Shown here: piece after piece, positions 1 to 64,000 of the stretch | How positions within the stretch are numbered: the stretch's first letter is position 1 | How the letters are laid out: each line of letters opens with the position of its first letter | Assembly (NCBI GenBank): GCA_946699065.1 | Contig: CAMPDV010000303.1 | Location: forward strand, 124,001 to 188,000 | Source of the DNA: Loxodes magnus | Taxonomy: Eukaryota; Ciliophora; Karyorelictea; Loxodida; Loxodidae | DNA length: 64,000 nt | Reading direction: 5' to 3' | The notes under the pieces: model-generated | The model's input: the letters and a program-made list of their open reading frames with translations, nothing else | Database searches by the model: none | What the model was told of the DNA's origin: nothing | Translations under genes and position numbers: made by a program

Positions 1-105
1 ACCACTCATGGTCTTACAGGTACCTGTCTTGACGTCCCATAGTCTCACCGTATAATCATAACTTCCCGATACGATGAACTCTGAATAACTGGATATAGCC
101 ACAGA
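1..105 (-). CDS. WD40 repeat fragment running off the left edge
   Basis: This is the continuation of the array frame downstream of the TGA at 106-108. It has no stop as far as the window edge and covers most of one repeat, with Y14 replacing D14 and a Y-D-Y motif at 23-25. The true C-terminus of the gene lies to the left of the window. Confidence 0.5.
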
Positions 106-1455
106 TCATACATAAAATGTGTGACCACTCATGGTCTTACAGGTACCTGTCTTGACGTCCCATAGTCTCACCGTATAATCATAACTTCCCGATACGATGA
201 ACTCTGAATCACTGGATATAGCCACAGCATATACAGAACTAGTGTGACCACTCATGGTCTTACAGGTACCTGTCTTGACGTCCCATAGTCTCACCGTATA
301 ATCATGACTTCCCGATACGATGAACTCTGAATCACTGGATATAGCCACAGCATATACAGAACTAGTGTGACCACTCATGGTCTTACAGGTACCTGTCTTG
401 ACGTCCCATAGTCTCACCGTATAATCTGCACTTCCCGATACGATGAACTCTGAATCACTGGATATAGCCACAGCAGATACATAACTAGTGTGACCACTCA
501 TGGTCTTACAGGTACCTGTCTTGACGTCCCATAGTCTCACCGTATAATCTGCACTTCCCGATACGATGAACTCTGAATAACTGGATATAGCCACAGATGA
601 TACATAATTAGTGTGACCACTCATGGTCTTACAGGTACCTGTCTTGACGTCCCATAGTCTCACCGTATAATCTGCACTTCCCGATACGATGAACTCTGAA
701 TCACTGGATATAGCCCCAGCATATACAGAACTAGTGTGACCACTCATGGTCTTACAGGTACCTGTCTTGACGTCCCATAGTCTCACCGTATAATCATTAC
801 TTCCCGATACGATGAACTCTGAATCATTCGATATAGCCACAGCACATACATAATGTGTGTGACCACTCATGGTCTTACAGGTACCTGTCTTGACGTCCCA
901 TAGTCTCACCGTATTATCTCCACTTCCCGATACGATGAACTCTGAATCACTGGATATAGCCACAGCATATACATAATGTGTGTGACCACTCATGGTCTTA
1001 CAGGTACCTGTCTTGACGTCCCATAGTCTCACCGTATAATCATAACTTCCCGATACGATGAACTCTGAATCACTGGATATATCCACAGCATATACATAAC
1101 TAGTGTGACCACTCATGGTCTTACAGGTACCTGTCTTGACGTCCCATAGTCTCACCGTATAATCATAACTTCCCGATACGATGAACTCTGAATCATTCGA
1201 TATAGCCACAGCATATACAGAACTAGTGTGACCACTCATGGTCTTACAGGTACCTGTCTTGACGTCCCATAGTCTCACCGTATTATCTCCACTTCCCGAT
1301 ACGATGAACTCTGAATCACTGGATATAGCCCCAGCATATACAACATTAGTGTGACCACTCATGGTCTTACAGGTACCTGTCTTGACGTCCCATAGTCTCA
1401 CCGTATAATCATAACTTCCCGATACGATGAACTCTGAATCATTCGATATAGCCAC
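106..1455 (-). CDS. WD40 open segment, about 11 repeats (449 codons)
   Basis: Eleven near-identical repeats follow each other without a stop and would be enough for one seven-bladed propeller plus four blades. The contact positions are diverse: residue 23 is Y, G, N, A or H, and residue pair 4-5 is N-V, S-S, S-Y, H-Y, N-Y or F-Y. One repeat has D10 (A-V-D-I) and two have G9 (A-G-A-I). The segment ends at a TGA at codon 7 following F4-Y5-V6. The upstream limit is another TGA at 1459-1461, and the apparent start is a GTG Val codon in mid-repeat, so it is not a real initiation site. It is in the same frame as its neighbours on both sides. Confidence 0.6.
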   Translation of the reverse strand: MAISNDSEFIVSGSYDYTVRLWDVKTGTCKTMSGHTNVVYAGAISSDSEFIVSGSGDNTVRLWDVKTGTCKTMSGHTSSVYAVAISNDSEFIVSGSYDYTVRLWDVKTGTCKTMSGHTSYVYAVDISSDSEFIVSGSYDYTVRLWDVKTGTCKTMSGHTHYVYAVAISSDSEFIVSGSGDNTVRLWDVKTGTCKTMSGHTHYVCAVAISNDSEFIVSGSNDYTVRLWDVKTGTCKTMSGHTSSVYAGAISSDSEFIVSGSADYTVRLWDVKTGTCKTMSGHTNYVSSVAISSYSEFIVSGSADYTVRLWDVKTGTCKTMSGHTSYVSAVAISSDSEFIVSGSADYTVRLWDVKTGTCKTMSGHTSSVYAVAISSDSEFIVSGSHDYTVRLWDVKTGTCKTMSGHTSSVYAVAISSDSEFIVSGSYDYTVRLWDVKTGTCKTMSGHTFYV

Positions 1456-1458
1456 AGA

Positions 1459-1893
1459 TCATACAGAACTAGTGTGACCACTCATGGTCTTACAGGTACC
1501 TGTCTTGACGTCCCATAGTCTCACCGTATAATCATTACTTCCCGATACGATGAACTCTGAATCATTCGATATAGCCACAGCACATACATAATGTGTGTGA
1601 CCACTCATGGTCTTACAGGTACCTGTCTTGACGTCCCATAGTCTCACCGTATTATCTCCACTTCCCGATACGATGAACTCTGAATCACTGGATATAGCCA
1701 CAGCATATACATAATGTGTGTGACCACTCATGGTCTTACAGGTACCTGTCTTGACGTCCCATAGTCTCACCGTATAATCATAACTTCCCGATACGATGAA
1801 CTCTGAATCACTGGATATATCCACAGCATATACATAACTAGTGTGACCACTCATGGTCTTACAGGTACCTGTCTTGACGTCCCATAGTCTCAC
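1459..1893 (-). CDS. WD40 open segment, 3.5 repeats (144 codons)
   Basis: This segment lies between a TAG at codon 25 of the upstream repeat (1897-1899) and a TGA at codon 7 (1459-1461). Its three-repeat module (D10 repeat, G-D-N repeat, N13 repeat with C7) is also found at about 780-1215 and 4340-4720. The displacements are 6 and 23 units, so it was copied as a block. The apparent start is a GTG in V27. It continues the frame of the 106-1455 segment and is probably the same gene interrupted by a single stop. Confidence 0.5.
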   Translation of the reverse strand: MRLWDVKTGTCKTMSGHTSYVYAVDISSDSEFIVSGSYDYTVRLWDVKTGTCKTMSGHTHYVYAVAISSDSEFIVSGSGDNTVRLWDVKTGTCKTMSGHTHYVCAVAISNDSEFIVSGSNDYTVRLWDVKTGTCKTMSGHTSSV

Positions 1894-2442
1894 CGTCTAA
1901 TCTGCACTTCCCGATACGATGAACTCTGAATCACTGGATATAGCCACAGCAGATACCTAATTTGTGTGACCACTCATGGTCTTACAGGTACCTGTCTTGA
2001 CGTCCCATAGTCTCACCGTATAATCATAACTTCCCGATACGATGAACTCTGAATCACTGGATATAGCCACAGATTATACAACACTAGTGTGACCACTCAT
2101 GGTCTTACAGGTACCTGTCTTGACGTCCCATAGTCTCACCGTCTAATCTGCACTTCCCGATACGATGAACTCTGAATCACTGGATATAGCCACAGCAGAT
2201 ACACAACTAGTGTGACCACTCATGGTCTTACAGGTACCTGTCTTGACGTCCCATAGTCTCACCGTATAATCTGCACTTCCCGATACGATGAACTCTGAAT
2301 CACTGGATATAGCCACAGCAGATACCTAATTTGTGTGACCACTCATGGTCTTACAGGTACCTGTCTTGACGTCCCATAGTCTCACCGTATAATCATAACT
2401 TCCCGATACGATGAACTCTGAATCACTGGATATAGCCACATA
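1894..2442 (-). pseudogene. Stop-rich WD40 patch in the otherwise open left part
   Basis: Five in-frame stops fall in about 4.5 units: TAG at 1897-1899 (codon 25), TAG at 1957-1959 (codon 5, after N4), TAA at 2074-2076 (codon 7), TAG at 2143-2145 (codon 25) and TAG at 2326-2328 (codon 5). The reading frame itself is not shifted. The rare TAG at codon 5 reappears at about 26813 and 62337, which suggests these units are related by block copying. Confidence 0.65.
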
Positions 2443-2931
2443 TCATACAGAACTAGTGTGACCACTCATGGTCTTACAGGTACCTGTCTTGACGTCCCAT
2501 AGTCTCACCGTATAATCATAACTTCCCGATACGATGAACTCTGAATCACTGGATATAGCCACAGCAGATACACAACTAGTGTGACCACTCATGGTCTTAC
2601 AGGTACCTGTCTTGACGTCCCATAGTCTCACCGTATAATCATAACTTCCCGATACGATGAACTCTGAATCACTGGATATAGCCACAGCATATACAGAACT
2701 AGTGTGACCACTCATGGTCTTACAGGTACCTGTCTTGACGTCCCATAGTCTCACCGTATAATCATAACTTCCCGATACGATGAACTCTGAATCACTGGAT
2801 ATGGCCACAGCAGATACATAACTAGTGTGACCACTCATGGTCTTACAGGTACCTGTCTTGACGTCCCATAGTCTCACCGTATAATCATAACTTCCCGATA
2901 CGATGAACTCTGAATAACTGGATATAGCCAC
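2443..2931 (-). CDS. WD40 open segment, 4 repeats (162 codons)
   Basis: Four repeats all have Y23-D24-Y25. They differ only at residues 4-8 (S-Y-V-S-A, S-S-V-Y-A, S-C-V-S-A, S-S-V) and at Y14 in the first. The segment is closed by a TGA at codon 7 (2443-2445), and the upstream stop is the TGA at 2935-2937. One repeat uses a synonymous GCC for A10, seen on the plus strand as atatggcc. The apparent start is a mid-repeat GTG. Confidence 0.5.
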   Translation of the reverse strand: MAISSYSEFIVSGSYDYTVRLWDVKTGTCKTMSGHTSYVSAVAISSDSEFIVSGSYDYTVRLWDVKTGTCKTMSGHTSSVYAVAISSDSEFIVSGSYDYTVRLWDVKTGTCKTMSGHTSCVSAVAISSDSEFIVSGSYDYTVRLWDVKTGTCKTMSGHTSSV

Positions 2932-2934
2932 AGA

Positions 2935-3369
2935 TCATACATAAAATGTGTGACCACTCATGGTCTTACAGGTACCTGTCTTGACGTCCCATAGTCTCAC
3001 CGTATAATCTGCACTTCCCGATACGATGAACTCTGAATCACTGGATATAGCCACAGCATATACAGAACTAGTGTGACCACTCATGGTCTTACAGGTACCT
3101 GTCTTGACGTCCCATAGTCTCACCGTATAATCATAACTTCCCGATACGATGAACTCTGAATCACTGGATATAGCCACAGCATATACAGAACTAGTGTGAC
3201 CACTCATGGTCTTACAGGTACCTGTCTTGACGTCCCATAGTCTCACCGTATAATCTGCACTTCCCGATACGATGAACTCTGAATCACTGGATATAGCCAC
3301 AGCAGATACAGAACTAGTGTGACCACTCATGGTCTTACAGGTACCTGTCTTGAAGTCCCATAGTCTCAC
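2935..3369 (-). CDS. WD40 open segment, 3.5 repeats (144 codons)
   Basis: This segment begins just after a TAG at codon 25 (about 3373) and ends at a TGA at codon 7 preceded by F4-Y5-V6. The first repeat carries F32 in place of V32 (aagtcc instead of cgtcc on the plus strand), a variant that is rare here but common right of 22 kb. Residue 23 alternates A and Y. It is in frame with both neighbours. Confidence 0.5.
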   Translation of the reverse strand: MRLWDFKTGTCKTMSGHTSSVSAVAISSDSEFIVSGSADYTVRLWDVKTGTCKTMSGHTSSVYAVAISSDSEFIVSGSYDYTVRLWDVKTGTCKTMSGHTSSVYAVAISSDSEFIVSGSADYTVRLWDVKTGTCKTMSGHTFYV

Positions 3370-3426
3370 CGTCTAATCTGCACTTCCCGATACGATGAAC
3401 TCTGAATCACTGGATATAGCCACAGA

Positions 3427-4107
3427 TCATACATAACTAGTGTGACCACTCATGGTCTTACAGGTACCTGTCTTGACGTCCCATAGTCTCACTGTATAAT
3501 CATTACTTCCCGATACGATGAACTCTGAATCACTGGATATAGCCACAGATGATACAACATTAGTGTGACCACTCATGGTCTTACAGGTACCTGTCTTGAC
3601 GTCCCATAGTCTCACCGAATAATCATTACTTCCCGATACGATGAACTCTGAATCACTGGATATAGCCACAGCATATACAGAACTAGTGTGACCACTCATG
3701 GTCTTACAGGTACCTGTCTTGACGTCCCATAGTCTCACCGTATAATCATAACTTCCCGATACGATGAACTCTGAATCACTGGATATAGCCACAGCATATA
3801 CATAATGTGTGTGACCACTTATGGTCTTACAGGTACCTGTCTTGACGTCCCATAGTCTCACCGTATAATCTGCACTTCCCGATACGATGAACTCTGAATC
3901 ACTGGATATAGCCACAGCACATACATAATGTGTGTGACCACTCATGGTCTTACAGGTACCTGTCTTGACGTCCCATAGTCTCACCGTATAATCATAACTT
4001 CCCGATACGATGAACTCTGAATCACTGGATATAGACACAGCATATACATAATGTGTGTGACCACTCATGGTCTTACAGGTACCTGTCTTGACGTCCCATA
4101 GTCTCAC
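3427..4107 (-). CDS. WD40 open segment, 5.5 repeats (226 codons)
   Basis: The repeats include the N4-V5 variant with S7-S8, the canonical WD40 form of strand a, and one with I40 instead of M40. One repeat has S25 (N-D-S-T context), a rare variant. The segment is limited by a TGA at codon 7 (3427-3429) and a TAG at codon 25 (4111-4113). The apparent start is a GTG in V27, one codon from that TAG, so only a single stop separates it from the 1492-codon segment. Confidence 0.5.
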   Translation of the reverse strand: MRLWDVKTGTCKTMSGHTHYVYAVSISSDSEFIVSGSYDYTVRLWDVKTGTCKTMSGHTHYVCAVAISSDSEFIVSGSADYTVRLWDVKTGTCKTISGHTHYVYAVAISSDSEFIVSGSYDYTVRLWDVKTGTCKTMSGHTSSVYAVAISSDSEFIVSGSNDYSVRLWDVKTGTCKTMSGHTNVVSSVAISSDSEFIVSGSNDYTVRLWDVKTGTCKTMSGHTSYV

Positions 4108-4110
4108 CGT

Positions 4111-7100
4111 CTAATCTGCACTTCCCGATACGATGAACTCTGAATCACTGGATATAGCCACAGCAGATACACAACTAGTGTGACCACTCATGGTCTTACA
4201 GGTACCTGTCTTGACGTCCCATAGTCTCACTGTATAATCATTACTTCCCGATACGATGAACTCTGAATAACTGGATATAGCCACAGCATATACAGAACTA
4301 GTGTGACCACTCATGGTCTTACAGGTACCTGTCTTGACGTCCCATAGTCTCACCGTATAATCATTACTTCCCGATACGATGAACTCTGAATCATTCGATA
4401 TAGCCACAGCACATACATAATGTGTGTGACCACTCATGGTCTTACAGGTACCTGTCTTGACGTCCCATAGTCTCACCGTATTATCTCCACTTCCCGATAC
4501 GATGAACTCTGAATCACTGGATATAGCCACAGCATATACATAATGTGTGTGACCACTCATGGTCTTACAGGTACCTGTCTTGACGTCCCATAGTCTCACC
4601 GTATAATCATAACTTCCCGATACGATGAACTCTGAATCACTGGATATATCCACAGCATATACATAACTAGTGTGACCACTCATGGTCTTACAGGTACCTG
4701 TCTTGACGTCCCATAGTCTCACCGTATAATCATGACTTCCCGATACGATGAACTCTGAATCACTGGATATAGCCACAGCACATACATAATGTGTGTGACC
4801 ACTCATGGTCTTACAGGTACCTGTCTTGACGTCCCATAGTCTCACCGTATTATCTCCACTTCCCGATACGATGAACTCTGAATCACTGGATATAGCCACA
4901 GCATATACATAATGTGTGTGACCACTCATGGTCTTACAGGTACCTGTCTTGACGTCCCATAGTCTCACCGTATAATCATTACTTCCCGATACGATGAACT
5001 CTGAATCATTCGATATAGCCACAGCATATACATAATTAGTGTGACCACTCATGGTCTTACAGGTACCTGTCTTGACGTCCCATAGTCTCACCGTATAATC
5101 ATAACTTCCCGATACGATGAACTCTGAATCACTGGATATATCCACAGCATATACATAACTAGTGTGACCACTCATGGTCTTACAGGTACCTGTCTTGACG
5201 TCCCATAGTCTCACCGTATAATCATTACTTCCCGATACGATGAACTCTGAATCATTCGATATAGCCACAGCATATACATAATGTGTGTGACCACTCATGG
5301 TCTTACAGGTACCTGTCTTGACGTCCCATAGTCTCACCGTATAATCATAACTTCCCGATACGATGAACTCTGAATCACTGGATATAGCCCCAGCATATAC
5401 AACATTAGTGTGACCACTCATGGTCTTACAGGTACCTGTCTTGACGTCCCATAGTCTCACTGTATAATCATTACTTCCCGATACGATGAACTCTGAATCA
5501 CTGGATATAGCCACAGCATATACAGAACTAGTGTGACCACTCATGGTCTTACAGGTACCTGTCTTGACGTCCCATAGTCTCACCGTATAATCATAACTTC
5601 CCGATACGATGAACTCTGAATCACTGGATATAGACACAGCATATACATAATGTGTGTGACCACTCATGGTCTTACAGGTACCTGTCTTGACGTCCCATAG
5701 TCTCACCGTATAATCATTACTTCCCGATACGATGAACTCTGAATCACTGGATATAGCCACAGCATATACAGAACTAGTGTGACCACTCATGGTCTTACAG
5801 GTACCTGTCTTGACGTCCCATAGTCTCACCGTATAATCATTACTTCCCGATACGATGAACTCTGAATAACTGGATATAGCCACAGCATATACAGAACTAG
5901 TGTGACCACTCATGGTCTTACAGGTACCTGTCTTGACGTCCCATAGTCTCACCGTATAATCATAACTTCCCGATACGATGAACTCTGAATCACTGGATAT
6001 AGACACAGCATATACATAATGTGTGTGACCACTCATGGTCTTACAGGTACCTGTCTTGACGTCCCATAGTCTCACCGTATAATCTGCACTTCCCGATACG
6101 ATGAACTCTGAATCACTGGATATAGCCACAGCATATACAGAACTAGTGTGACCACTCATGGTCTTACAGGTACCTGTCTTGACGTCCCATAGTCTCACCG
6201 TATAATCATTACTTCCCGATACGATGAACTCTGAATCACTGGATATATCCACAGCATATACATAACTAGTGTGACCACTCATGGTCTTACAGGTACCTGT
6301 CTTGACGTCCCATAGTCTCACCGTATAATCATAACTTCCCGATACGATGAACTCTGAATCACTGGATATAGCCACAGCATATACATAATGTGTGTGACCA
6401 CTCATGGTCTTACAGGTACCTGTCTTGACGTCCCATAGTCTCACCGTATAATCATAACTTCCCGATACGATGAACTCTGAATCACTGGATATATCCACAG
6501 CATATACATAACTAGTGTGACCACTCATGGTCTTACAGGTACCTGTCTTGACGTCCCATAGTCTCACCGTATAATCATGACTTCCCGATACGATGAACTC
6601 TGAATCACTGGATATAGCCACAGCACATACATAATGTGTGTGACCACTCATGGTCTTACAGGTACCTGTCTTGACGTCCCATAGTCTCACCGTATTATCT
6701 CCACTTCCCGATACGATGAACTCTGAATCACTGGATATAGCCACAGCATATACATAATGTGTGTGACCACTCATGGTCTTACAGGTACCTGTCTTGACGT
6801 CCCATAGTCTCACCGTATAATCATAACTTCCCGATACGATGAACTCTGAATCACTGGATATATCCACAGCATATACATAACTAGTGTGACCACTCATGGT
6901 CTTACAGGTACCTGTCTTGACGTCCCATAGTCTCACCGTATAATCATGACTTCCCGATACGATGAACTCTGAATCACTGGATATAGCCACAGCACATACA
7001 TAATGTGTGTGACCACTCATGGTCTTACAGGTACCTGTCTTGACGTCCCATAGTCTCACCGTATAATCATTACTTCCCGATACGATGAACTCTGAATCAT

Positions 7101-8589
7101 TCGATATAGCCACAGCATATACATAATTAGTGTGACCACTCATGGTCTTACAGGTACCTGTCTTGACGTCCCATAGTCTCACCGTATAATCATAACTTCC
7201 CGATACGATGAACTCTGAATCACTGGATATATCCACAGCATATACATAACTAGTGTGACCACTCATGGTCTTACAGGTACCTGTCTTGACGTCCCATAGT
7301 CTCACCGTATAATCATTACTTCCCGATACGATGAACTCTGAATCATTCGATATAGCCACAGCATATACATAATGTGTGTGACCACTCATGGTCTTACAGG
7401 TACCTGTCTTGACGTCCCATAGTCTCACCGTATAATCATAACTTCCCGATACGATGAACTCTGAATCACTGGATATAGCCCCAGCATATACAACATTAGT
7501 GTGACCACTCATGGTCTTACAGGTACCTGTCTTGACGTCCCATAGTCTCACTGTATAATCATTACTTTCCGATACGATGAACTCTGAATAACTGGATATA
7601 GCCACAGCATATACAGAACTAGTGTGACCACTCATGGTCTTACAGGTACCTGTCTTGACGTCCCATAGTCTCACCGTATAATCATAACTTCCCGATACGA
7701 TGAACTCTGAATCACTGGATATAGACACAGCATATACATAATGTGTGTGACCACTCATGGTCTTACAGGTACCTGTCTTGACGTCCCATAGTCTCACCGT
7801 ATAATCATTACTTCCCGATACGATGAACTCTGAATCATTCGATATAGCCACAGCATATACATAATTAGTGTGACCACTCATGGTCTTACAGGTACCTGTC
7901 TTGACGTCCCATAGTCTCACCGTATTATCTCCACTTCCCGATACGATGAACTCTGAATCACTGGATATAGCCACAGCATATACATAATGTGTGTGACCAC
8001 TCATGGTCTTACAGGTACCTGTCTTGACGTCCCATAGTCTCACCGTATAATCATAACTTCCCGATACGATGAACTCTGAATCACTGGATATATCCACAGC
8101 ATATACATAACTAGTGTGACCACTCATGGTCTTACAGGTACCTGTCTTGACGTCCCATAGTCTCACCGTATAATCATAACTTCCCGATACGATGAACTCT
8201 GAATCACTGGATATAGCCACAGCATATACAGAACTAGTGTGACCACTCATGGTCTTACAGGTACCTGTCTTGACGTCCCATAGTCTCACCGTATTATCTC
8301 CACTTCCCGATACGATGAACTCTGAATCATTCGATATAGCCACAGCATATACATAATGTGTGTGACCACTCATGGTCTTACAGGTACCTGTCTTGACGTC
8401 CCATAGTCTCACCGTATAATCATAACTTCCCGATACGATGAACTCTGAATCACTGGATATAGCCCCAGCATATACAACATTAGTGTGACCACTCATGGTC
8501 TTACAGGTACCTGTCTTGACGTCCCATAGTCTCACCGTATAATCATTACTTCCCGATACGATGAACTCTGAATCACTGGATATAGCCAC
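4111..8589 (-). CDS. Longest WD40 open segment, 36 repeats (1492 codons)
   Basis: Thirty-six consecutive repeats have no stop and no indel, enough for about five seven-bladed propellers. The tetrad residues H2, D24 and W30 are kept throughout. Diversity sits at residue 23 (Y, N, G, H, A), residue 25 (Y or N), 4-5 (H-Y, S-Y, S-S, N-Y, N-V, S-C), 7 (Y, C or S), 10 (A, D or S), 13 (S or N) and 14 (D or Y). One repeat has E21. Internal blocks recur at displacements of 8 and 17 units. The segment ends at TAG 4111-4113 (codon 25), and its upstream limit is TGA 8593-8595. The apparent start is a mid-repeat GTG, so the real N-terminus lies further right. Of everything here this is the best candidate for translated sequence. 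Confidence 0.7.
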   Translation of the reverse strand: MAISSDSEFIVSGSNDYTVRLWDVKTGTCKTMSGHTNVVYAGAISSDSEFIVSGSYDYTVRLWDVKTGTCKTMSGHTHYVYAVAISNDSEFIVSGSGDNTVRLWDVKTGTCKTMSGHTSSVYAVAISSDSEFIVSGSYDYTVRLWDVKTGTCKTMSGHTSYVYAVDISSDSEFIVSGSYDYTVRLWDVKTGTCKTMSGHTHYVYAVAISSDSEFIVSGSGDNTVRLWDVKTGTCKTMSGHTNYVYAVAISNDSEFIVSGSNDYTVRLWDVKTGTCKTMSGHTHYVYAVSISSDSEFIVSGSYDYTVRLWDVKTGTCKTMSGHTSSVYAVAISSYSEFIVSESNDYTVRLWDVKTGTCKTMSGHTNVVYAGAISSDSEFIVSGSYDYTVRLWDVKTGTCKTMSGHTHYVYAVAISNDSEFIVSGSNDYTVRLWDVKTGTCKTMSGHTSYVYAVDISSDSEFIVSGSYDYTVRLWDVKTGTCKTMSGHTNYVYAVAISNDSEFIVSGSNDYTVRLWDVKTGTCKTMSGHTHYVCAVAISSDSEFIVSGSHDYTVRLWDVKTGTCKTMSGHTSYVYAVDISSDSEFIVSGSYDYTVRLWDVKTGTCKTMSGHTHYVYAVAISSDSEFIVSGSGDNTVRLWDVKTGTCKTMSGHTHYVCAVAISSDSEFIVSGSHDYTVRLWDVKTGTCKTMSGHTSYVYAVDISSDSEFIVSGSYDYTVRLWDVKTGTCKTMSGHTHYVYAVAISSDSEFIVSGSYDYTVRLWDVKTGTCKTMSGHTSYVYAVDISSDSEFIVSGSNDYTVRLWDVKTGTCKTMSGHTSSVYAVAISSDSEFIVSGSADYTVRLWDVKTGTCKTMSGHTHYVYAVSISSDSEFIVSGSYDYTVRLWDVKTGTCKTMSGHTSSVYAVAISSYSEFIVSGSNDYTVRLWDVKTGTCKTMSGHTSSVYAVAISSDSEFIVSGSNDYTVRLWDVKTGTCKTMSGHTHYVYAVSISSDSEFIVSGSYDYTVRLWDVKTGTCKTMSGHTSSVYAVAISSDSEFIVSGSNDYTVRLWDVKTGTCKTMSGHTNVVYAGAISSDSEFIVSGSYDYTVRLWDVKTGTCKTMSGHTHYVYAVAISNDSEFIVSGSNDYTVRLWDVKTGTCKTMSGHTSYVYAVDISSDSEFIVSGSYDYTVRLWDVKTGTCKTMSGHTNYVYAVAISNDSEFIVSGSNDYTVRLWDVKTGTCKTMSGHTHYVYAVAISSDSEFIVSGSGDNTVRLWDVKTGTCKTMSGHTHYVCAVAISSDSEFIVSGSHDYTVRLWDVKTGTCKTMSGHTSYVYAVDISSDSEFIVSGSYDYTVRLWDVKTGTCKTMSGHTHYVYAVAISSDSEFIVSGSGDNTVRLWDVKTGTCKTMSGHTHYVCAVAISNDSEFIVSGSNDYTVRLWDVKTGTCKTMSGHTSSVYAVAISSYSEFIVSGSNDYTVRLWDVKTGTCKTMSGHTSCVSAVAISSDSEFIVSGSAD
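4960..7760 (-). repeat. Duplicated 6-unit block: about 4960-5670 and 7050-7760
   Basis: The displacement is 2091 bp (17 units). Both copies run through the same series of variants: N13 with N-Y, D10, N13 with H-Y, G9 with N-V, a cactgta repeat and an S10 repeat. The right copy has gained Y14 and E21. Both lie inside the 1492-codon open segment, so duplication here kept the frame and gained no stop. Confidence 0.75.
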
Positions 8590-8592
8590 AGA

Positions 8593-9204
8593 TCATACAT
8601 AATGTGTGTGACCACTCATGGTCTTACAGGTACCTGTCTTGACGTCCCATAGTCTCACCGTATAATCATAACTTCCCGATACGATGAACTCTGAATCACT
8701 GGATATAGCCACAGCACATACATAATGTGTGTGACCACTCATGGTCTTACAGGTACCTGTCTTGACGTCCCATAGTCTCACCGTATTATCTCCACTTCCC
8801 GATACGATGAACTCTGAATCACTGGATATAGCCACAGCATATACATAATGTGTGTGACCACTCATGGTCTTACAGGTACCTGTCTTGACGTCCCATAGTC
8901 TCACCGTATAATCATTACTTCCCGATACGATGAACTCTAAATCATTCGATATAGCCACAGCATATACATAATTAGTGTGACCACTCATGGTCTTACAGGT
9001 ACCTGTCTTGACGTCCCATAGTCTCACCGTATAATCATAACTTCCCGATACGATGAACTCTGAATCACTGGATATAGCCACAGCATATACAGAACTAGTG
9101 TGACCACTCATGGTCTTACAGGTACCTGTCTTGACGTCCCATAGTCTCACCGTATAATCATAACTTCCCGATACGATGAACTCTGAATCACTGGATATAG
9201 CCAC
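8593..9204 (-). CDS. WD40 open segment, 5 repeats (203 codons)
   Basis: Five repeats lie in the same frame as the 1492-codon segment and are separated from it by one TGA (8593-8595, codon 7). One repeat has L15 instead of S15 (aactctaaatc on the plus strand), a change almost unique in the array. It contains the G-D-N and C7 variants typical of the left part. The upstream limit is the TGA at 9208-9210. Confidence 0.55.
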   Translation of the reverse strand: MAISSDSEFIVSGSYDYTVRLWDVKTGTCKTMSGHTSSVYAVAISSDSEFIVSGSYDYTVRLWDVKTGTCKTMSGHTNYVYAVAISNDLEFIVSGSNDYTVRLWDVKTGTCKTMSGHTHYVYAVAISSDSEFIVSGSGDNTVRLWDVKTGTCKTMSGHTHYVCAVAISSDSEFIVSGSYDYTVRLWDVKTGTCKTMSGHTHYV

Positions 9205-9207
9205 AGA

Positions 9208-12033: not shown

Positions 12034-12036
12034 AGA

Positions 12037-12279: not shown

Positions 12280-12288
12280 AGCATATAC

Positions 12289-12894: not shown

Positions 12895-12897
12895 AGA

Positions 12898-13386: not shown

Positions 13387-13512
13387 GGCATATACTTAAC
13401 TAGTGTGACCACTCATGGTCTTACAGGTACCTGTCTTGACGTCCCATAGTCTCACCGTATAATCATAACTTCCCGATACGATGAACTCTGAATCACTGGA
13501 TATAGCCACAGA

Positions 13513-16653: not shown

Positions 16654-16656
16654 CGT

Positions 16657-53470: not shown

Positions 53471-53957
53471 TAGCCACAGATGATACATAATTAGTGTGAC
53501 CACTCATGGTCTTACAGGTACCTGTCTTGACGTCCCATAGTCTTACCGTATAATCATTACTTCCCGATACGATGAACTCTGAATCACTGGATATAGCCAC
53601 AGATGATACATAATTAGTGTGACCACTCATGGTCTTACAGGTACATGTCTTTACGTTCCATTGTCTCACCGTATAATCATAAATTCCCGATACGATGAAC
53701 TCTGAATCACTGGATATAGCCACAGCATATACATAACTAGTGTGACCACTCATGGTCTTACAGGTACCTGTCTTGACGTCCCATAGTCTCACCGTATAAT
53801 CTGCACTTCCCGATACGATGAACTCTGAATCACTGGATATAGCCACAGATGATACATAATCTATATGGCCACTCATGGTCTTACAGCTACCTGTCTTGAC
53901 GTCCCATAGTCTCACCGTATAATCATTACTTCCCGATACGATGAACTCTGAATCACT
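48684..53957 (-). pseudogene. WD40 block with duplicated islands
   Basis: Islands are 48684-48926 and its copy 52251-52493, 49299-49541 and its copy 52866-53108, 49914-50156 and 50652-50894 (near-identical, with K16, S36 and a synonymous GTC for V19 seen as cccgagacg), 51513-51755 and 51759-52001. The K16-S36 unit occurs three times, at about 50080, 50200 and 50820, two of them adjacent. The units between these islands carry TGA, TAA or TAG. Confidence 0.6.
50904..51509 (-). CDS. WD40 open segment, 5 repeats (201 codons) with I22-Y-D and T-C-T-C
   Basis: Five repeats are open between a TGA and a TAA at codon 5. The middle repeat is highly marked: I22 in place of S22 (aaattccc), Q29-W30-N31, and C35 (acatgtctttacg). 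I22 lies beside the tetrad Asp. It is flanked by N-D-Y repeats with N-Y-V-S-S, the canonical WD40 strand. The same haplotype is in 53358-53975 (20 units away) and in 62337-63311 (76 units further). Confidence 0.45.
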   Translation of the reverse strand: MAISSDSEFIVSGSYDYTVRLWDVKTGTCKTMSGHTSCVSAVAISSDSEFIVSGSADYTVRLWDVKTGTCKTMSGHTSYVYAVAISSDSEFIVSGIYDYTVRQWNVKTCTCKTMSGHTNYVSSVAISSDSEFIVSGSNDYTVRLWDVKTGTCKTMSGHTNYVSSVAISSDSEFIVSGSNDYTVRLWDVKTGSCKTMSGHTS

Positions 53958-53975
53958 GATATAGCCACATATCAT
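53358..53975 (-). CDS. WD40 open segment, 5 repeats (205 codons), frameshifted start
   Basis: It shares the I22, Q29-N31 and C35 repeat with 50904-51509. One repeat reads G1-H2-I3-D4-Y5 (ctatatggcc on the plus strand at about 53863), the only one of its kind I saw. The first residues come from the other frame because of the 1-bp deletion at 53958, so the real chain does not start here. It ends at a TGA after S4-S5-V6. Confidence 0.45.
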   Translation of the reverse strand: MICGYISDSEFIVSGSNDYTVRLWDVKTGSCKTMSGHIDYVSSVAISSDSEFIVSGSADYTVRLWDVKTGTCKTMSGHTSYVYAVAISSDSEFIVSGIYDYTVRQWNVKTCTCKTMSGHTNYVSSVAISSDSEFIVSGSNDYTVRLWDVKTGTCKTMSGHTNYVSSVAISSDSEFIVSGSYDYTVRLWDVKTGTCKTMSGHTSSV

Positions 53976-54326
53976 ACATGACTAGTGTGACCACTCATGG
54001 TCTTACAGGTACCTGTCTTGAAGTCCCATAGTCTCACCGTATAATCATAACTTCCCGATACGATGAACTCTGAATCACTGGATATAGCCACAGCATATAC
54101 AGAACTAGTGTGACCACTTATGGTCTTACAGGTACCTGTCTTGACGTCCCATAGTCTCACTGTATAATCATTACTTCCCGATACGATGAACTCTGAATCA
54201 CTGGATATAGCCACATATCATACAGAACTAGTGTGACCACTCATGGTCTTACAGGTACCTGTCTTGAAGTCCCATAGTCTCACCGTATAATCATAACTTC
54301 CCGATACGATGAACTCTGAATCACTG
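53958..54326 (-). other. Pair of 1-bp deletions (53958 and 54326)
   Basis: Both read actgatatagcc followed by tatcatacatgactag, three units apart less one base, so one event was copied. Between them is the island 53972-54214 with N-D-Y, I40 and F32 repeats. Confidence 0.85.
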
Positions 54327-57300
54327 ATATAGCCACATATCATACATGACTAGTGTGACCACTCATGGTCTTACAGGTACCTGTCTTGACGTCCCATAGT
54401 CTCACCGTATAATCATAACTTCCCGATACGATGAACTCTGAATAACTGGATATAGCCACAGCAGATACACAACTAGTGTGACCACTCATGGTCTTACAGG
54501 TACCTGTCTTGACGTCCCATAGTCTCACCGTATAATCTGCACTTCCCGATACGATGAACTCTGAATCACTGGATATAGCCACAGATTATACATTACTAGT
54601 GTGACCACTCATGGTCTTACAGGTACCTGTCTTGACGTCCCATAGTCTCACCGTATAATCATAACTTCCCGATACGATGAACTCTGAATAACTGGATATA
54701 GCCACAGCAGATACACAACTAGTGTGACCACTCATGGTCTTACAGGTACCTGTCTTGACGTCCCATAGTCTCACCGTATAATCTGCACTTCCCGATACGA
54801 TGAACTCTGAATCACTGGATATAGCCACAGATTATACATTACTAGTGTGACCACTCATGGTCTTACAGGTACCTGTCTTGACGTCCCATAGTCTCACCGT
54901 ATAATCATAACTTCCCGATACGATGAACTCTGAATCACTGGATATAGCCACATATCATACAGAACTAGTGTGACCACTCATGGTCTTACAGGTACCTGTC
55001 TTGACGTCCCATAGTCTCACCGTATAATCATAACTTCCCGATACGATGAACTCTGAATCACTGGATATAGCCACAGATCATACACAACTAGTGTGACCAC
55101 TCATGGTCTTACAGGTACCTGTCTTGACGTCCCATAGTCTCACCGTATAATCATAACTTCCCGATACGATGAACTCTGAATCACTGGATATAGCCACAGA
55201 TCATACAGAACTAGTGTGACCACTCATGGTCTTACAGGTACCTGTCTTGAAGTCCCATAGTCTCACCGTATAATCATAACTTCCCGATACGATGAACTCT
55301 GAATCACTGGATATAGCCACAGCAGATACAACACTAGTGTGACCACTTATGGTCTTACAGGTACCTGTCTTGACGTCCCATAGTCTCACCGTATAATCAT
55401 AACTTCCCGATACGATGAACTCTGAATCACTGGATATAGCCACAGATGATACATAATTAGTGTGACCACTCATGGTCTTACAGGTACCTGTCTTGACGTC
55501 CCATAGTCTTACCGTATAATCATAACTTCCCGATACGATGAACTCTGAATCACTGGATATAGCCACAGATCATACACAACTAGTGTGACCACTCATGGTC
55601 TTACAGGTACCTGTCTTGAAGTCCCATAGTCTCACCGTATTATCATAACTTCCCGATACGATGAACTCTGAATCACTGGATATAGCCACAGATCATACAG
55701 AACTAGTGTGACCACTCATGGTCTTACAGGTACCTGTCTTGACGTCCCATAGTCTCACCGTATAATCATAACTTCCCGATACGATGAACTCTGAATCACT
55801 GGATATAGCCACAGCAGATACAACACTAGTGTGACCACTTATGGTCTTACAGGTACCTGTCTTGAAGTCCCATAGTCTCACCGTATAATCATAACTTCCC
55901 GATACGATGAACTCTGAATCACTGGATATAGCCACAGATTATACAACACTAGTGTGACCACTCATGGTCTTACAGGTACCTGTCTTGACGTCCCATAGTC
56001 TCACCGTATAATCATAACTTCCCGATACGATGAACTCTGAATCACTGGATATAGCCACAGATCATACACAACTAGTGTGACCACTCATGGTCTTACAGGT
56101 ACCTGTCTTGAAGTCCCATAGTCTCACCGTATTATCATAACTTCCCGATACGATGAACTCTGAATCACTGGATATAGCCACAGATCATACAGAATCTGTG
56201 TGACCACTCATGGTCTTACAGGTACCTGTCTTGAAGTCCCATAGTCTCACCGTATAATCATAACTTCCCGATACGATGAACTCTGAATCACTGGATATAG
56301 CCACAGCAGATACAACACTAGTGTGACCACTTATGGTCTTACAGGTACCTGTCTTGACGTCCCATAGTCTCACCGTATAATCATAACTTCCCGATACGAT
56401 GAACTCTGAATCACTGGATATAGCCACAGCATATACATAATGTGTGTGACCACTTATGGTCTTACAGGTACCTGTCTTGACGTCCCATAGTCTCACCGTA
56501 TAATCATAACTTCCCGATACGATGAACTCTGAATCACTGGATATAGCCACAGATCATACAGAACTAGTGTGACCACTCATGGTCTTACAGGTACCTGTCT
56601 TGACGTCCCATAGTCTCACCGTATAATCATAACTTCCCGATACGATGAACTCTGAATCACTGGATATAGCCACATATCATACAGAACTAGTGTGACCACT
56701 CATGGTCTTACAGGTACCTGTCTTGACGTCCCATAGTCTTACCGTATAATCATTACTTCCCGATACGATGAACTCTGAATCACTGGATATAGCCACAGCA
56801 TATACAGAACTAGTGTGACCACTCATGGTCTTACAGGTACCTGTCTTGACGTCCCATAGTCTCACCGTATAATCATAACTTCCCGATACGATGAACTCTG
56901 AATCACTGGATATAGCCACATATCATACATGACTAGTGTGACCACTCATGGTCTTACAGGTACCTGTCTTGACGTCCCATAGTCTCACCGTATAATCATA
57001 ACTTCCCGATACGATGAACTCTGAATCACTGGATATAGCCACATATCATACATGACTAGTGTGACCACTCATGGTCTTACAGGTACCTGTCTTGACGTCC
57101 CATAGTCTCACCGTATAATCATAACTTCCCGATACGATGAACTCTGAATCACTGGATATAGCCACGGCATATACTTAACTAGTGTGACCACTCATGGTCT
57201 TACAGGTACCTGTCTTGACGTCCCATAGTCTCACCGTATAATCATAACTTCCCGATACGATGAACTCTGAATCACTGGATATAGCCACAGCAGATACACA

Positions 57301-58403
57301 ACTAGTGTGACCACTCATGGTCTTACAGGTACCTGTCTTGACGTCCCATAGTCTCACCGTATAATCATAACTTCCCGATACGATGAACTCTGAATCACTG
57401 GATATTGCCACATATCATACACAACTAGTGTGACCACTCATGGTCTTACAGGTACCTGTCTTGACGTCCCATAGTCTCACCGTATAATCATAACTTCCCG
57501 ATACGATGAACTCTGAATCACTGGATATAGCCACAGATCATACACAACTAGTGTGACCACTCATGGTCTTACAGGTACCTGTCTTGACGTCCCATAGTCT
57601 CACCGTATAATCATAACTTCCCGATACGATGAACTCTGAATCACTGGATATAGCCACAGCATATACAACACTAGTGTGACCACTCATGGTCTTACAGGTA
57701 CCTGTCTTGACGTCCCATAGTCTCACCGTCTAATCTGCACTTCCCGATACGATGAACTCTGAATCACTGGATATAGCCACAGCATATACAACACTAGTGT
57801 GACCACTCATGGTCTTACAGGTACCTGTCTTGACGTCCCATAGTCTCACCGTATAATCATAACTTCCCGATACGATGAACTCTGAATCACTGGATATAGC
57901 CACAGATCATACAGAACTAGTGTGACCACTCATGGTCTTACAGGTACCTGTCTTGACGTCCCATAGTCTCACCGTATAATCTGCACTTCCCGATACGATG
58001 AACTCTGAATCACTGGATATAGCCACAGATGATACATAACTAGTGTGACCACTCATGGTCTTACAGGTACCTGTCTTGACGTCCCATAGTCTCACCGTAT
58101 AATCTGCACTTCCCGATACGATGAACTCTGAATCACTGGATATAGCCACAGATCATACATAATGTGTGTGACCACTCATGGTCTTACAGGTACCTGTCTT
58201 GACGTCCCATAGTCTCACCGTATAATCATAACTTCCCGATACGATGAACTCTGAATCACTGGATATAGCCACATATCATACAGAACTAGTGTGACCACTC
58301 ATGGTCTTACAGGTACCTGTCTTGAAGTCCCATAGTCTCACCGTATAATCATAACTTCCCGATACGATGAACTCTGAATCACTGGATATAGCCACAGCAT
58401 ATA
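54327..58403 (-). pseudogene. Decayed WD40 block
   Basis: Islands are 54340-54582 and 54586-54828 (a perfect two-unit duplication except for the last residues), 55201-55566 (121 codons), 55693-55935, 56185-56550 (121 codons), 56677-56919, 57175-57411, 57538-57726 and 57907-58149. D4 (agaatctgtg on the plus strand) at about 56192 is the only D4 seen. Y14 occurs in the 54.4-54.7 kb pair. TAA at codon 7 (agattatac) is common. The block ends at a 2-bp deletion near 58403. Confidence 0.6.
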
Positions 58404-61400
58404 CAACTAGTGTGACCACTCATGGTCTTACAGGTACCTGTCTTGACGTCCCATAGTCTCACCGTATAATCATAACTTCCCGATACGATGAACTCTGAAT
58501 CACTGGATATAGCCACAGCAGATACACAACTAGTGTGACCACTCATGGTCTTACAGGTACCTGTCTTGACGTCCCATAGTCTCACCGTATAATCATAACT
58601 TCCCGATACGATGAACTCTGAATCACTGGATATAGCCACAGCAGATACACAACTAGTGTGACCACTCATGGTCTTACAGGTACCTGTCTTGACGTCCCAT
58701 AGTCTCACCGTATAATCATAACTTCCCGATACGATGAACTCTGAATCACTGGATATAGCCACAGATTATACAACACTAGTGTGACCACTCATGGTCTTAC
58801 AGGTACCTGTCTTGAAGTCCCATAGTCTCACCGTCTAATCTGCACTTCCCGATACGATGAACTCTGAATCACTGGATATAGCCACAGATCATACAGAACT
58901 AGTGTGACCACTCATGGTCTTACAGGTACCTGTCTTGACGTCCCATAGTCTCACCGTATAATCATAACTTCCCGATACGATGAACTCTGAATCACTGGAT
59001 ATTGCCACATATCATACACAACTAGTGTGACCACTCATGGTCTTACAGGTACCTGTCTTGACGTCCCATAGTCTCACCGTATAATCATAACTTCCCGATA
59101 CGATGAACTCTGAATCACTGGATATAGCCACAGATCATACACAACTAGTGTGACCACTCATGGTCTTACAGGTACCTGTCTTGACGTCCCATAGTCTCAC
59201 CGTATAATCATAACTTCCCGATACGATGAACTCTGAATCACTGGATATAGCCACAGCAGATACACAACTAGTGTGACCACTCATGGTCTTACAGGTACCT
59301 GTCTTGACGTCCCATAGTCTCACCGTATAATCATAACTTCCCGATACGATGAACTCTGAATCACTGGATATTGCCACATATCATACACAACTAGTGTGAC
59401 CACTCATGGTCTTACAGGTACCTGTCTTGACGTCCCATAGTCTCACCGTATAATCATAACTTCCCGATACGATGAACTCTGAATCACTGGATATAGCCAC
59501 AGATCATACACAACTAGTGTGACCACTCATGGTCTTACAGGTACCTGTCTTGACGTCCCATAGTCTCACCGTATAATCATAACTTCCCGATACGATGAAC
59601 TCTGAATCACTGGATATAGCCACAGCATATACAACACTAGTGTGACCACTCATGGTCTTACAGGTACCTGTCTTGACGTCCCATAGTCTCACCGTCTAAT
59701 CTGCACTTCCCGATACGATGAACTCTGAATCACTGGATATAGCCACAGCATATACAACACTAGTGTGACCACTCATGGTCTTACAGGTACCTGTCTTGAC
59801 GTCCCATAGTCTCACCGTATAATCATAACTTCCCGATACGATGAACTCTGAATCACTGGATATAGCCACAGATCATACAGAACTAGTGTGACCACTCATG
59901 GTCTTACAGGTACCTGTCTTGACGTCCCATAGTCTCACCGTATAATCTGCACTTCCCGATACGATGAACTCTGAATCACTGGATATAGCCACAGATGATA
60001 CATAACTAGTGTGACCACTCATGGTCTTACAGGTACCTGTCTTGACGTCCCATAGTCTCACCGTATAATCTGCACTTCCCGATACGATGAACTCTGAATC
60101 ACTGGATATAGCCACAGATCATACATAATGTGTGTGACCACTCATGGTCTTACAGGTACCTGTCTTGACGTCCCATAGTCTCACCGTATAATCATAACTT
60201 CCCGATACGATGAACTCTGAATCACTGGATATAGCCACAGATCATACACAACTAGTGTGACCACTCATGGTCTTACAGGTACCTGTCTTGACGTCCCATA
60301 GTCTCACCGTATAATCATAACTTCCCGATACGATGAACTCTGAATCACTGGATATAGCCACAGCATATACAACACTAGTGTGACCACTCATGGTCTTACA
60401 GGTACCTGTCTTGACGTCCCATAGTCTCACCGTCTAATCTGCACTTCCCGATACGATGAACTCTGAATCACTGGATATAGCCACAGCATATACAACACTA
60501 GTGTGACCACTCATGGTCTTACAGGTACCTGTCTTGACGTCCCATAGTCTCACCGTATAATCATAACTTCCCGATACGATGAACTCTGAATCACTGGATA
60601 TAGCCACAGATCATACAGAACTAGTGTGACCACTCATGGTCTTACAGGTACCTGTCTTGACGTCCCATAGTCTCACCGTATAATCTGCACTTCCCGATAC
60701 GATGAACTCTGAATCACTGGATATAGCCACAGATGATACATAACTAGTGTGACCACTCATGGTCTTACAGGTACCTGTCTTGACGTCCCATAGTCTCACC
60801 GTATAATCTGCACTTCCCGATACGATGAACTCTGAATCACTGGATATAGCCACAGATCATACATAATGTGTGTGACCACTCATGGTCTTACAGGTACCTG
60901 TCTTGACGTCCCATAGTCTCACCGTATAATCATAACTTCCCGATACGATGAACTCTGAATCACTGGATATAGCCACATATCATACAGAACTAGTGTGACC
61001 ACTCATGGTCTTACAGGTACCTGTCTTGAAGTCCCATAGTCTCACCGTATAATCATAACTTCCCGATACGATGAACTCTGAATCACTGGATATAGCCACA
61101 GCATATACAACTAGTGTGACCACTCATGGTCTTACAGGTACCTGTCTTGACGTCCCATAGTCTCACCGTATAATCATAACTTCCCGATACGATGAACTCT
61201 GAATCACTGGATATAGCCACAGCAGATACACAACTAGTGTGACCACTCATGGTCTTACAGGTACCTGTCTTGACGTCCCATAGTCTCACCGTATAATCAT
61301 AACTTCCCGATACGATGAACTCTGAATCACTGGATATAGCCACAGCAGATACACAACTAGTGTGACCACTCATGGTCTTACAGGTACCTGTCTTGACGTC

Positions 61401-61480: not shown

Positions 61481-62336
61481 TAGTGTGACCACTCATGGTC
61501 TTACAGGTACCTGTCTTGAAGTCCCATAGTCTCACCGTCTAATCTGCACTTCCCGATACGATGAACTCTGAATCACTGGATATAGCCACAGATCATACAG
61601 AACTAGTGTGACCACTCATGGTCTTACAGGTACCTGTCTTGACGTCCCATAGTCTCACCGTCTAATCTGCACTTCCCGATACGATGAACTCTGAATCACT
61701 GGATATAGCCACAGATCATACATAACTAGTGTGACCACTCATGGTCTTACAGGTACCTGTCTTGAAGTCCCATAGTCTCACCGTATAATCATAACTTCCC
61801 GATACGATGAACTCTGAATCACTGGATATAGCCACATATCATACAGAACTAGTGTGACCACTCATGGTCTTACAGGTACCTGTCTTGAAGTCCCATAGTC
61901 TCACCGTATAATCATAACTTCCCGATACGATGAACTCTGAATCACTGGATATAGCCACAGATTATACATTACTAGTGTGACCACTCATGGTCTTACAGGT
62001 ACCTGTCTTGACGTCCCATAGTCTCACCGTATAATCATAACTTCCCGATACGATGAACTCTGAATCACTGGATATAGCCACAGCAGATACACAACTAGTG
62101 TGACCACTCATGGTCTTACAGGTACCTGTCTTGACGTCCCATAGTCTCACCGTATAATCATAACTTCCCGATACGATGAACTCTGAATCACTGGATATAG
62201 CCACAGATTATACAACACTAGTGTGACCACTCATGGTCTTACAGGTACCTGTCTTGACGTCCCATAGTCTCACCGTATAATCTGCACTTCCCGATACGAT
62301 GAACTCTGAATCACTGGATATAGCCACAGCAGATAC
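58404..62336 (-). pseudogene. Decayed WD40 block near the right edge
   Basis: Islands are 58379-58762 (127 codons, ending in a frameshifted tail C-I-C-C-G-Y-I-Q only because of the upstream TAA position and register), 59135-59377, 59504-59692, 59873-60115, 60242-60430, 60611-60853, 61083-61466 (same 127-codon translation) and 61962-62204. Two-repeat modules with A-D and S-Y-V-S-S alternate with Y-D-Y modules. The 2-bp deletions at about 58403 and 61107 move the frame. Confidence 0.55.
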
Positions 62337-63311
62337 CTAATTTGTGTGACCACTCATGGTCTTACAGGTACCTGTCTTGACGTCCCATAGTCTCACCGTA
62401 TAATCATAACTTCCCGATACGATGAACTCTGAATCACTGGATATAGCCACAGCAGATACACAACTAGTGTGACCACTCATGGTCTTACAGGTACCTGTCT
62501 TGACGTCCCATAGTCTCACCGTATAATCATAACTTCCCGATACGATGAACTCTGAATCACTGGATATAGCCACAGCATATACATAACTAGTGTGACCACT
62601 CATGGTCTTACAGGTACCTGTCTTGACGTCCCATAGTCTCACCGTATAATCATAACTTCCCGATACGATGAACTCTGAATCACTGGATATAGCCACAGCA
62701 TATACATAACTAGTGTGACCACTCATGGTCTTACAGGTACCTGTCTTGACGTCCCATAGTCTCACCGTATAATCATTACTTCCCGATACGATGAACTCTG
62801 AATCACTGGATATAGCCACAGATGATACATAATTAGTGTGACCACTCATGGTCTTACAGGTACCTGTCTTGACGTCCCATAGTCTTACCGTATAATCATT
62901 ACTTCCCGATACGATGAACTCTGAATCACTGGATATAGCCACAGATGATACATAATTAGTGTGACCACTCATGGTCTTACAGGTACATGTCTTTACGTTC
63001 CATTGTCTCACCGTATAATCATAAATTCCCGATACGATGAACTCTGAATCACTGGATATAGCCACAGATGATACATAATTAGTGTGACCACTCATGGTCT
63101 TACAGGTACCTGTCTTGACGTCCCATAGTCTCACCGTATAATCATTACTTCCCGATACGATGAACTCTGAATCACTGGATATAGCCACAGATGATACATA
63201 ATTAGTGTGACCACTCATGGTCTTACAGGTACCTGTCTTGACGTCCCATAGTCTCACCGTATAATCATAACTTCCCGATACGATGAACTCTGAATCACTG
63301 GATATAGCCAC
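62337..63311 (-). CDS. WD40 open segment, 8 repeats (324 codons)
   Basis: This is the longest open run in the right three quarters of the window and is enough repeats for one propeller. It contains the marked I22, Q29-W30-N31, C35 repeat (about 63020) in the context of N-Y-V-S-S repeats, then S-Y-V-Y-A and S-C-V-S-A repeats. It ends at a TAG at codon 5 (cta, 62337-62339) after N4. The upstream stop is a TGA at codon 7. The N-terminal GTG is mid-repeat. Confidence 0.5.
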   Translation of the reverse strand: MAISSDSEFIVSGSYDYTVRLWDVKTGTCKTMSGHTNYVSSVAISSDSEFIVSGSNDYTVRLWDVKTGTCKTMSGHTNYVSSVAISSDSEFIVSGIYDYTVRQWNVKTCTCKTMSGHTNYVSSVAISSDSEFIVSGSNDYTVRLWDVKTGTCKTMSGHTNYVSSVAISSDSEFIVSGSNDYTVRLWDVKTGTCKTMSGHTSYVYAVAISSDSEFIVSGSYDYTVRLWDVKTGTCKTMSGHTSYVYAVAISSDSEFIVSGSYDYTVRLWDVKTGTCKTMSGHTSCVSAVAISSDSEFIVSGSYDYTVRLWDVKTGTCKTMSGHTN

Positions 63312-64000
63312 ATATCATACAGAACTAGTGTGACCACTCATGGTCTTACAGGTACCTGTCTTGAAGTCCCATAGTCTCACCGTATAATCATAACTTCACG
63401 ATACGATGAACTCTGAATCACTGGATATAGCCACAGCAGATACATAACTAGTGTGACCACTCATGGTCTTACAGCTACCTGTCTTGACGTCCCATAGTCT
63501 TACCGTATAATCATTACTTCCCGATACGATGAACTCTGAATCACTGGATATAGCCACAGCATATACAACACTAGTGTGACCACTCATGGTCTTACAGGTA
63601 CCTGTCTTGACGTCCCATAGTCTCACCGTATAATCATAACTTCCCGATACGATGAACTCTGAATCACTGGATATAGCCACAGATCATACATAACTAGTGT
63701 GACCACTCATGGTCTTACAGGTACCTGTCTTGAAGTCCCATAGTCTCACCGTATAATCATAACTTCCCGATACGATGAACTCTGAATCACTGGATATAGC
63801 CACATATCATACAGAACTAGTGTGACCACTCATGGTCTTACAGCTACCTGTCTTGACGTCCCATAGTCTTACCGTATAATCATTACTTCCCGATACGATG
63901 AACTCTGAATCACTGGATATAGCCACAGATCATACAGAACTAGTGTGACCACTCATGGTCTTACAGGTACCTGTCTTGACGTCCCATAGTCTCACCGTCT
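63312..64000 (-). pseudogene. Right-edge WD40 units with stops
   Basis: The island 63396-63680 (94 codons) ends at TGA 63396-63398, where G21 (GGA) has become TGA. To the right, TGA codons at codon 7 lie at 63684-63686, about 63804 and about 63930. The window ends inside a unit reading caccgtct, which probably continues as the A-D-TAG allele. Two units carry S36 (cagctacc) with cttaccg, another local haplotype. Confidence 0.55.

Follow-up and report, generated by a model that had tools for sequence, protein, structure and literature searches.

A satellite of WD40-blade units in Loxodes magnus and its probable exchange of blades with downstream receptor-like genes

As far as the consulted sections of the respective papers go, three systems come closest to the locus described here. 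The HNWD proteins of Podospora anserina (het-d/het-e/het-r) carry near-identical WD40 repeats with concerted evolution and few hypervariable codons; usually 11 high-conservation repeats lie within a fungal NACHT protein, and their number is polymorphic (PMC12222747). The vls system of Borrelia has one expression site and a few head-to-head cassettes, with unidirectional recombination shown (PMC11499132). Tetrahymena has a large, young, recognition-type family of leucine-rich repeat (LRR) genes built of identical 90-bp exons, split by introns and numbering about 10 per gene; the gene arrays are enriched in subtelomeric and pericentromeric regions, unequal exchange has been proposed for them, and a satellite with units in the hundreds of thousands is not mentioned (PMC6564038). 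Here we describe a stretch of 64,000 nucleotides (the window) from another ciliate, Loxodes magnus, positions 124,001–188,000 of contig CAMPDV010000303.1 (C303; assembly GCA_946699065.1). The window is filled by 123-bp units, each coding for one WD40 blade, and an intact WD40 gene lies downstream of the array on the same contig.

The window belongs to a satellite in which each monomer corresponds to one sensor blade of a family of RING-like/coiled-coil/pentapeptide/WD40 genes, and we consider it probable that this satellite exchanges blades with the genes downstream. As in HNWD, the repeats are near-identical WD40 units with few hypervariable codons; unlike HNWD, the Loxodes genes have a near-fixed blade number and no NACHT detected by Pfam, and satellite arrays lie outside the genes. 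As in vls, an intact gene is accompanied by a nearby contiguous array of relatives of its variable region, which here would be silent. Unlike vls, there are hundreds of genes, the arrays share the strand of the gene and comprise single-blade units by the hundreds to thousands, and donation is proposed from comparison of sequences. By analogy, the Loxodes array may work like a silent-cassette archive, yet we do not class it as one since scale, orientation, and locus number differ. The Tetrahymena LRR exon arrays are the nearest ciliate precedent found; unlike those exons, the Loxodes units are 123 bp long and match WD40. The highly repetitive WD40 propeller of the solved structure 2YMU also has near-identical repeats, within a single protein and with no satellite. 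A search of mainly open literature found no paper joining Loxodes and WD40 and, among the titles listed, none that dealt with such arrays, and neither "WD40" nor "satellite" occurs in the main text of the genome paper (PMC11441545).

The whole window is one head-to-tail tandem array. Tandem Repeats Finder (TRF) returned a single row, 1–63998, with period 123, 520.4 copies, and 94% matches. Wrap-around alignment divided the window into 522 units, two end pieces included, with 12 deletions (14 letters) and one insertion, i.e., 64,000 + 13 = 520 x 123 + 53. The original prediction, made from the letters of the window, had given the same count of 520 units of 123 bp plus 53 bp and had placed both window ends inside the array. 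Both statements hold: the array extends on C303 from ~37,150 to the contig end at 373,736. The original prediction had also proposed to look for a 5′ effector, NACHT, or signalling domain beyond the right edge; no 5′ effector was found there, because the array itself occupies the rest of the contig. The gene of interest is located past the left edge, on the downstream side of the array. The blades are encoded on the minus strand, one per unit, and the window contains 11 net frameshifts, all of them between 28,995 and 61,109; one further deletion and the insertion cancel each other. Neither these frameshifts nor the in-frame stops described below figure in the original prediction. A 300-aa piece of the array was predicted from single sequence as an all-beta fold (mean pLDDT 90.1, pTM 0.87; the five models spanned 36 to 90), the top PDB structure matches of which were WD40 propellers, and 2YMU was the best PDB sequence match (E 1.2e-137). 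Two protein searches with the window frames returned distant WD40s, with 23–51% identity (120 listed of 7,896) and 26–56% identity (120 listed of 7,286). Blastn of 1.2 kb of the array against phages and plasmids gave no match, nor did exact scans with one 33-mer, run on contigs of viruses and prokaryotes. A fungal or bacterial origin was rejected on the basis of these searches.

On C303, the array covers 336.6 kb, or ~2,737 units (TRF row from 37,151; start set at 37,141 in one of the analyses). The fetched sequence was unbroken to position 258,000, and beyond it 20 of 20 probes of ~300 bp each fell in the array. An exact 36-mer of the unit occurred 346,109 times in the scanned assembly (705,730,643 bases, 7,843 contigs), the reversed control 0 times, which sets a lower bound of at least 42.6 Mb, or 6.0% of the assembly. 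Since just 1,405 of 1,797 C303 units hold the exact 36-mer, a fair estimate for the satellite is ~54 Mb. The Loxodes arrays are long, homogenised, and head-to-tail, and their unit occurs in very high copy number and at many places, which is what defines satellite DNA. The macronuclear assembly of L. magnus amounts to 706 Mbp and is described as rich in tandem repeats and retrotransposons (PMC11441545). Its authors suspect misassembly of low-complexity tandem repeats, by more than 100 Mbp of which the micronuclear and macronuclear assemblies differ, and the overlap identity threshold was 96% (PMC11441545); lengths of single arrays are therefore uncertain. These circumstances would also suit an artefact in which the real arrays are short and contigs were falsely extended or joined. 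We regard this as extremely improbable, given the 346,109 exact copies genome-wide, the 418 distinct units among 1,759 ungapped C303 units, and the allele mixes that differ between arrays on different contigs, even if single-array lengths may still be wrong. One such mix was seen on contig C74 (9,001–33,000, with probes to 70 kb), where TGA was rare, N and K were frequent at codon 37, and the array has an open frame of 5,903 codons even under the standard code.

The intact gene of C303 (24,358–26,907, minus strand) lies 10.2 kb from the array and has 849 codons before TGA under code 27; it was read as one uninterrupted frame, from which the start codon was also taken. Its RING-like start is followed by a long part that by eye resembles a coiled coil, then by pentapeptide repeats and WD40 blades. 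Seven blades were recognised by eye: one gene-specific, four array-type, and two divergent. Pfam detected six WD40 stretches and pentapeptides, the latter with a best E of 7e-7 (below the cut-off of that model), while PF00805 with 22.6 bits passed its own cut-off. The pattern C-x2-C-x14-C-x-C-x2-C-x2-C-x11-C-x2-H was kept at the start of nine out of nine genes; its spacing is one that we take to be like the canonical eight-ligand spacing of RING, and the Pfam RING match was weak (E 0.46). In the 513-aa N-terminal part, Pfam found pentapeptides and the weak RING only, and no NACHT. The N-terminus (440 aa) had no relative at E ≤ 1e-3 among 2,982 candidates.

The gene belongs to a large family. 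A 35-nt motif of the gene start was present at 371 sites in the genome with up to three mismatches (control 0), some of which will be haplotype duplicates. Of 3,369 candidates, 84 were scored; the alignment of each covered almost all of the 513-aa query, with a printed identity of 61–71%, TAA and TAG being counted as mismatches (self-identity 87%). At the DNA level, the N-terminal part of the C303 gene differed by 12–18% from 39 other copies (82–88% identity; 40 of 550 candidates scored). The spacer between the N- and C-terminal search sequences, counted in genes on contigs among the listed matches of both searches, was 462 bp in 24 of 28 genes, 463–465 bp in three, and 342 bp in one; judged by these lengths, the number of blades is near-fixed.

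Read with the standard code, the units of the window contain 311 in-frame stops (TGA 224, TAG 51, TAA 36), of which 307 are at codons 17, 19, and 37 and four at codon 33. The nuclear code of karyorelicts is code 27, where TGA is the sole stop and also stands for W inside genes (PMC11441545). Accordingly, the C303 gene reads TAA and TAG as Q and TGA as W, with TGA encoding the W of a WD motif and also occurring at codons of the blades, and the 84 copies of the gene start carry 11–21 TAG and 39–59 TAA in frame. At codon 19 of the array unit TGA reads as W ('GHTSYVWSVAIS'), and TGA was found at this codon in 5 of 39 gene units as well. Because the neighbouring gene uses code 27, the 311 "stops" of the array are sense codons, and an array of pseudogenes full of stops was rejected as an explanation. 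By the same code, which has no unconditional stop, an open frame in the array proves nothing.

The order of array and gene is recurrent. On all seven contigs known to hold both (C303, C1478, C417, C1076, C1235, C5059, and C724), gene and array share a strand and the array is the upstream element. Probes upstream of the gene on seven further contigs hit an array on the same strand in five (C142, C43, C295, C400, and C528). Of 27 genes located on 25 contigs of known length, 25 are oriented toward the closer end of their contig (p 3e-6); the median distance is 10.1 kb. As Loxodes telomeres are described as unidentified (PMC11441545), loci of this family could be a handle on chromosome ends, although contig ends may be assembly breaks and not telomeres.

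Genes and arrays share both the conserved and the variable parts of the unit. Blades 1–4 (462–465 bp) of 17 genes were sampled, and framework identity, i.e., identity over all codons except 15, 16, 17, 19, 20, 22, 35, and 37, was measured in 13 of them. For blades 2–4, framework DNA identity to the C303 array consensus was 0.949–1.00 in 11 of the 13 genes; the exceptions were C295 (blade 2, which is out of frame, 0.222; blade 3, 0.919) and C1814 (blade 4, 0.855). In the C295 gene (2723–3184), blade 2 runs out of frame over a stretch and blade 3 is back in frame, with the total length unchanged. Nine sampled arrays had a common framework (0.992–0.998). Such likeness, which extends to silent positions, is not easily accounted for by plain descent in genes whose N-terminal parts have diverged by 12–18%, and points to ongoing exchange. 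The gene blades vary chiefly at codons 16, 17, 19, 20, 35, and 37, and the same six codons are variable in the arrays. In genes, the amino-acid-changing diversity (piN) was 0.436 at variable codons vs. a silent diversity (piS) of 0.060 in the framework; C295 was dropped, which left 48 units from 16 genes. Within the array, codon association was weak between the two clusters of variable codons (Cramer V 0.07–0.32) and stronger within a cluster (0.25–0.72). In one gene (C2306:4442–4903), three of four fetched blades share the residues NQSAVQ at the six variable codons, as if copied within the gene.

HNWD repeats are reported to be under diversifying selection at positions 10, 11, 12, 14, 30, 32, and 39 (PMC12222747). 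At the best of 41 offsets, five of the six variable codons of Loxodes, and weakly codon 3 of the array, fall on these positions. The scores at this offset were 2.795 vs. 1.844 for the array and 3.938 vs. 2.588 for the genes, and five of the top seven variable codons of the array coincided with HNWD positions (p 5e-4). Codon 20 is variable in Loxodes and absent from the HNWD list, and the variation at codon 15 is mostly silent.

We compared genes with their own and with other arrays using three blades per gene at the seven loci with both elements. The array samples comprised 1,759 units for C303 and 40–60 for the others; in the second array samples, only units above 0.9 framework identity were kept. 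For the tests, arrays were cut to 40 units. Pairing each gene with its own array gave the highest centred allele likelihood among all 5,040 permutations (p 2e-4); on shared haplotypes, its p was 0.0012. The six-codon haplotype of the gene blade was present in its own array for 7 of 21 blades (C303, 2; C1235, 1; C417, 2; C724, 2), and the own-array haplotypes of the C417 and C1235 blades were found in no other sampled array.

The first blade gives an indication of direction. In its gene-specific form, blade 1 is distinguished from the array by 14 positions of the framework. Blade 1 was of the gene type (10–14 of the 14 letters) in 13 of 17 genes and of the array type (13–14 of 14) in the other four, and none of 2,269 array units carried more than two gene-type letters, some units of C623 being counted more than once from overlapping loci. 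The occurrence of array-type first blades in genes vs. the lack of gene-type units in arrays favours the direction from array to gene, and judging from these sequences, donation of blades by the array is likely.

Selection in the array was evaluated with the 1,759 ungapped units of C303 (38 of 1,797 dropped). Framework variants comprised 47 amino-acid-changing and 15 silent changes vs. 241:74 expected (p 0.88). Rare variants, present in 1–5 units, fell into variable codons in 5 of 38 cases, as chance predicts, and common variants (>50 units) in 19 of 30 (Fisher p 3e-5 vs. rare). New mutations in the array thus look unselected, while its hypervariability looks inherited. Targeted hypermutation of the array was rejected since rare variants were not enriched in the variable codons.

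Several results weigh against blade exchange from array to gene. Gene by gene, the own array came first in only two of seven cases, second in four, and fifth in one (C1478). The gene blades of C1478, C1076, and C5059 had no haplotype in their own sampled array, and a gene-blade haplotype was found in any sampled array for 12 of 45 blades (15 genes, C417 left out). Genes carry alleles absent from the array samples and, per unit, are richer in alleles than these samples. No array was met upstream of the genes at two probes on C19 and one probe on C307. The four array-type first blades could also be explained by conversion from another gene. The frequency-weighted framework piN/piS was 0.51 in the C303 array, 0.44 in other arrays, and 0.45 in genes; a ratio of about 0.5, near that of genes, leaves room for some constraint, or for inherited selected variation, in the arrays. 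The excess of alleles in genes, the 33 of 45 gene haplotypes that were not found in the sampled arrays, and the array framework with no shortage of amino-acid changes by count would all fit a passive satellite that arose from gene blades, spreads and becomes homogenised as other satellites do, and returns nothing to the genes, the gene blades being kept alike by exchange between genes. We regard a passive satellite as rather unlikely, since genes overall resemble their own arrays more than other arrays, array-type first blades occur in 4 of 17 genes with gene-type ones in none of the array units, and the order of an upstream array and a gene in the same orientation recurs.

Translation of the array as one protein of thousands of blades appears very improbable. 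Such a giant gene could be argued from the missing unconditional stop under code 27, from frame-continuous stretches of up to 49.0 kb (C303:66,906–115,932), from the array of C74 with its standard-code open frame, and from the piN/piS of about 0.5, which speaks for some constraint. It is opposed by 29 net frameshifts in 221 kb of C303 and by the 3′ end of the array, which, read by eye, breaks off abruptly into AT-rich DNA without the C-terminal blades of the gene. Amino-acid-changing framework variants are not scarce by count, the intact genes have about seven blades, and openness is meaningless in a code of this kind. Because of the 11 net frameshifts in the window and the bare 3′ end, we treat the array as a satellite.

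The original prediction had suggested that the locus may be at once gene, satellite, and variant library, and had compared it with fungal NLR-like proteins. As a satellite it turned out larger than thought. The gene part was not borne out for the array: frameshifts, the abrupt 3′ end, and framework variant counts speak against it, as does the existence of intact genes in which the number of blades is near-fixed. The library part stands in part: framework and variable codons are common to genes and arrays and the pairing was the best of 5,040, set against the own-array ranking and the haplotype recovery given above. The fungal analogy applies to the variable positions and fails for the protein, which has no detectable NACHT in its N-terminal part and is written in a ciliate code.

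Under the exchange reading, arrays would grow and turn over by unequal exchange and would not be translated as such. The array and the fixed-size propeller of the downstream gene would exchange blades by gene conversion, mainly from array to gene, and new combinations of variable surface residues would thereby enter an otherwise stable receptor. By analogy with the fungal HNWD proteins, recognition of self/non-self or of intruders is the likeliest guess for the role of this receptor. More tentatively, we propose as a possibility that Loxodes has a cis-linked cassette system with hundreds of receptor genes, many of them with an upstream blade store of tens to hundreds of kilobases, from which gene conversion would keep rewriting the recognition surface without altering blade number or framework. 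If this is true, at least 6% of the assembly would be a store of coding cassettes tied to intact receptor-like genes, and the satellite would serve a recognition system as its working store of diversity. Among the titles listed in the literature searches, none showed such a link of satellite turnover to the diversity of receptors. The question bears on what satellites can do for genes and on whether ciliates have a diversifying recognition system. As a practical warning, coding-derived arrays can vanish under tandem-repeat masking, and open frames under code 27 are no proof of coding. Coordinates of the features of the window are listed in Table 1.

Table 1. Features of the 64,000-nucleotide window of L. 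magnus (window coordinates).
Feature	Position	Strand	Remarks
WD40-blade satellite array, interior slice, 123-bp units	1..64000	minus	TRF, wrap-around alignment, genome placement; C303:124001-188000 of the ~336.6-kb array
Part without net frameshift	1..28995	minus	Belongs to the 36.6-kb frame-continuous stretch C303:116,423-152,995
P0001, longest frame open even by the standard code	4111..8589	minus	1492 aa; 36 Pfam WD40 stretches
300-aa piece, predicted structure all-beta, WD40 propeller	7690..8589	minus	
Span holding all 11 net frameshifts	28995..61109	minus	
1-nt deletions	28995, 29609, 35881, 36249, 38954, 39568, 40920, 53957, 54325		
2-nt deletions	58405, 61109		
Mutually cancelling deletion/insertion pair	53860-53863		

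The flank of C303 outside the array gave no match in an Rfam search. A gag-like frame with a zinc-knuckle-like end, in which TAA and TAG are seemingly sense codons, was noticed by eye at C303 ~28,000–28,900. A second, AT-rich satellite with a 98-bp unit and ~25% GC fills C303:1–20460, the contig end downstream of the gene, and the 40 bases with which contigs C528, C2777, and C5064 begin agree with it in 32, 36, and 32 letters, respectively.

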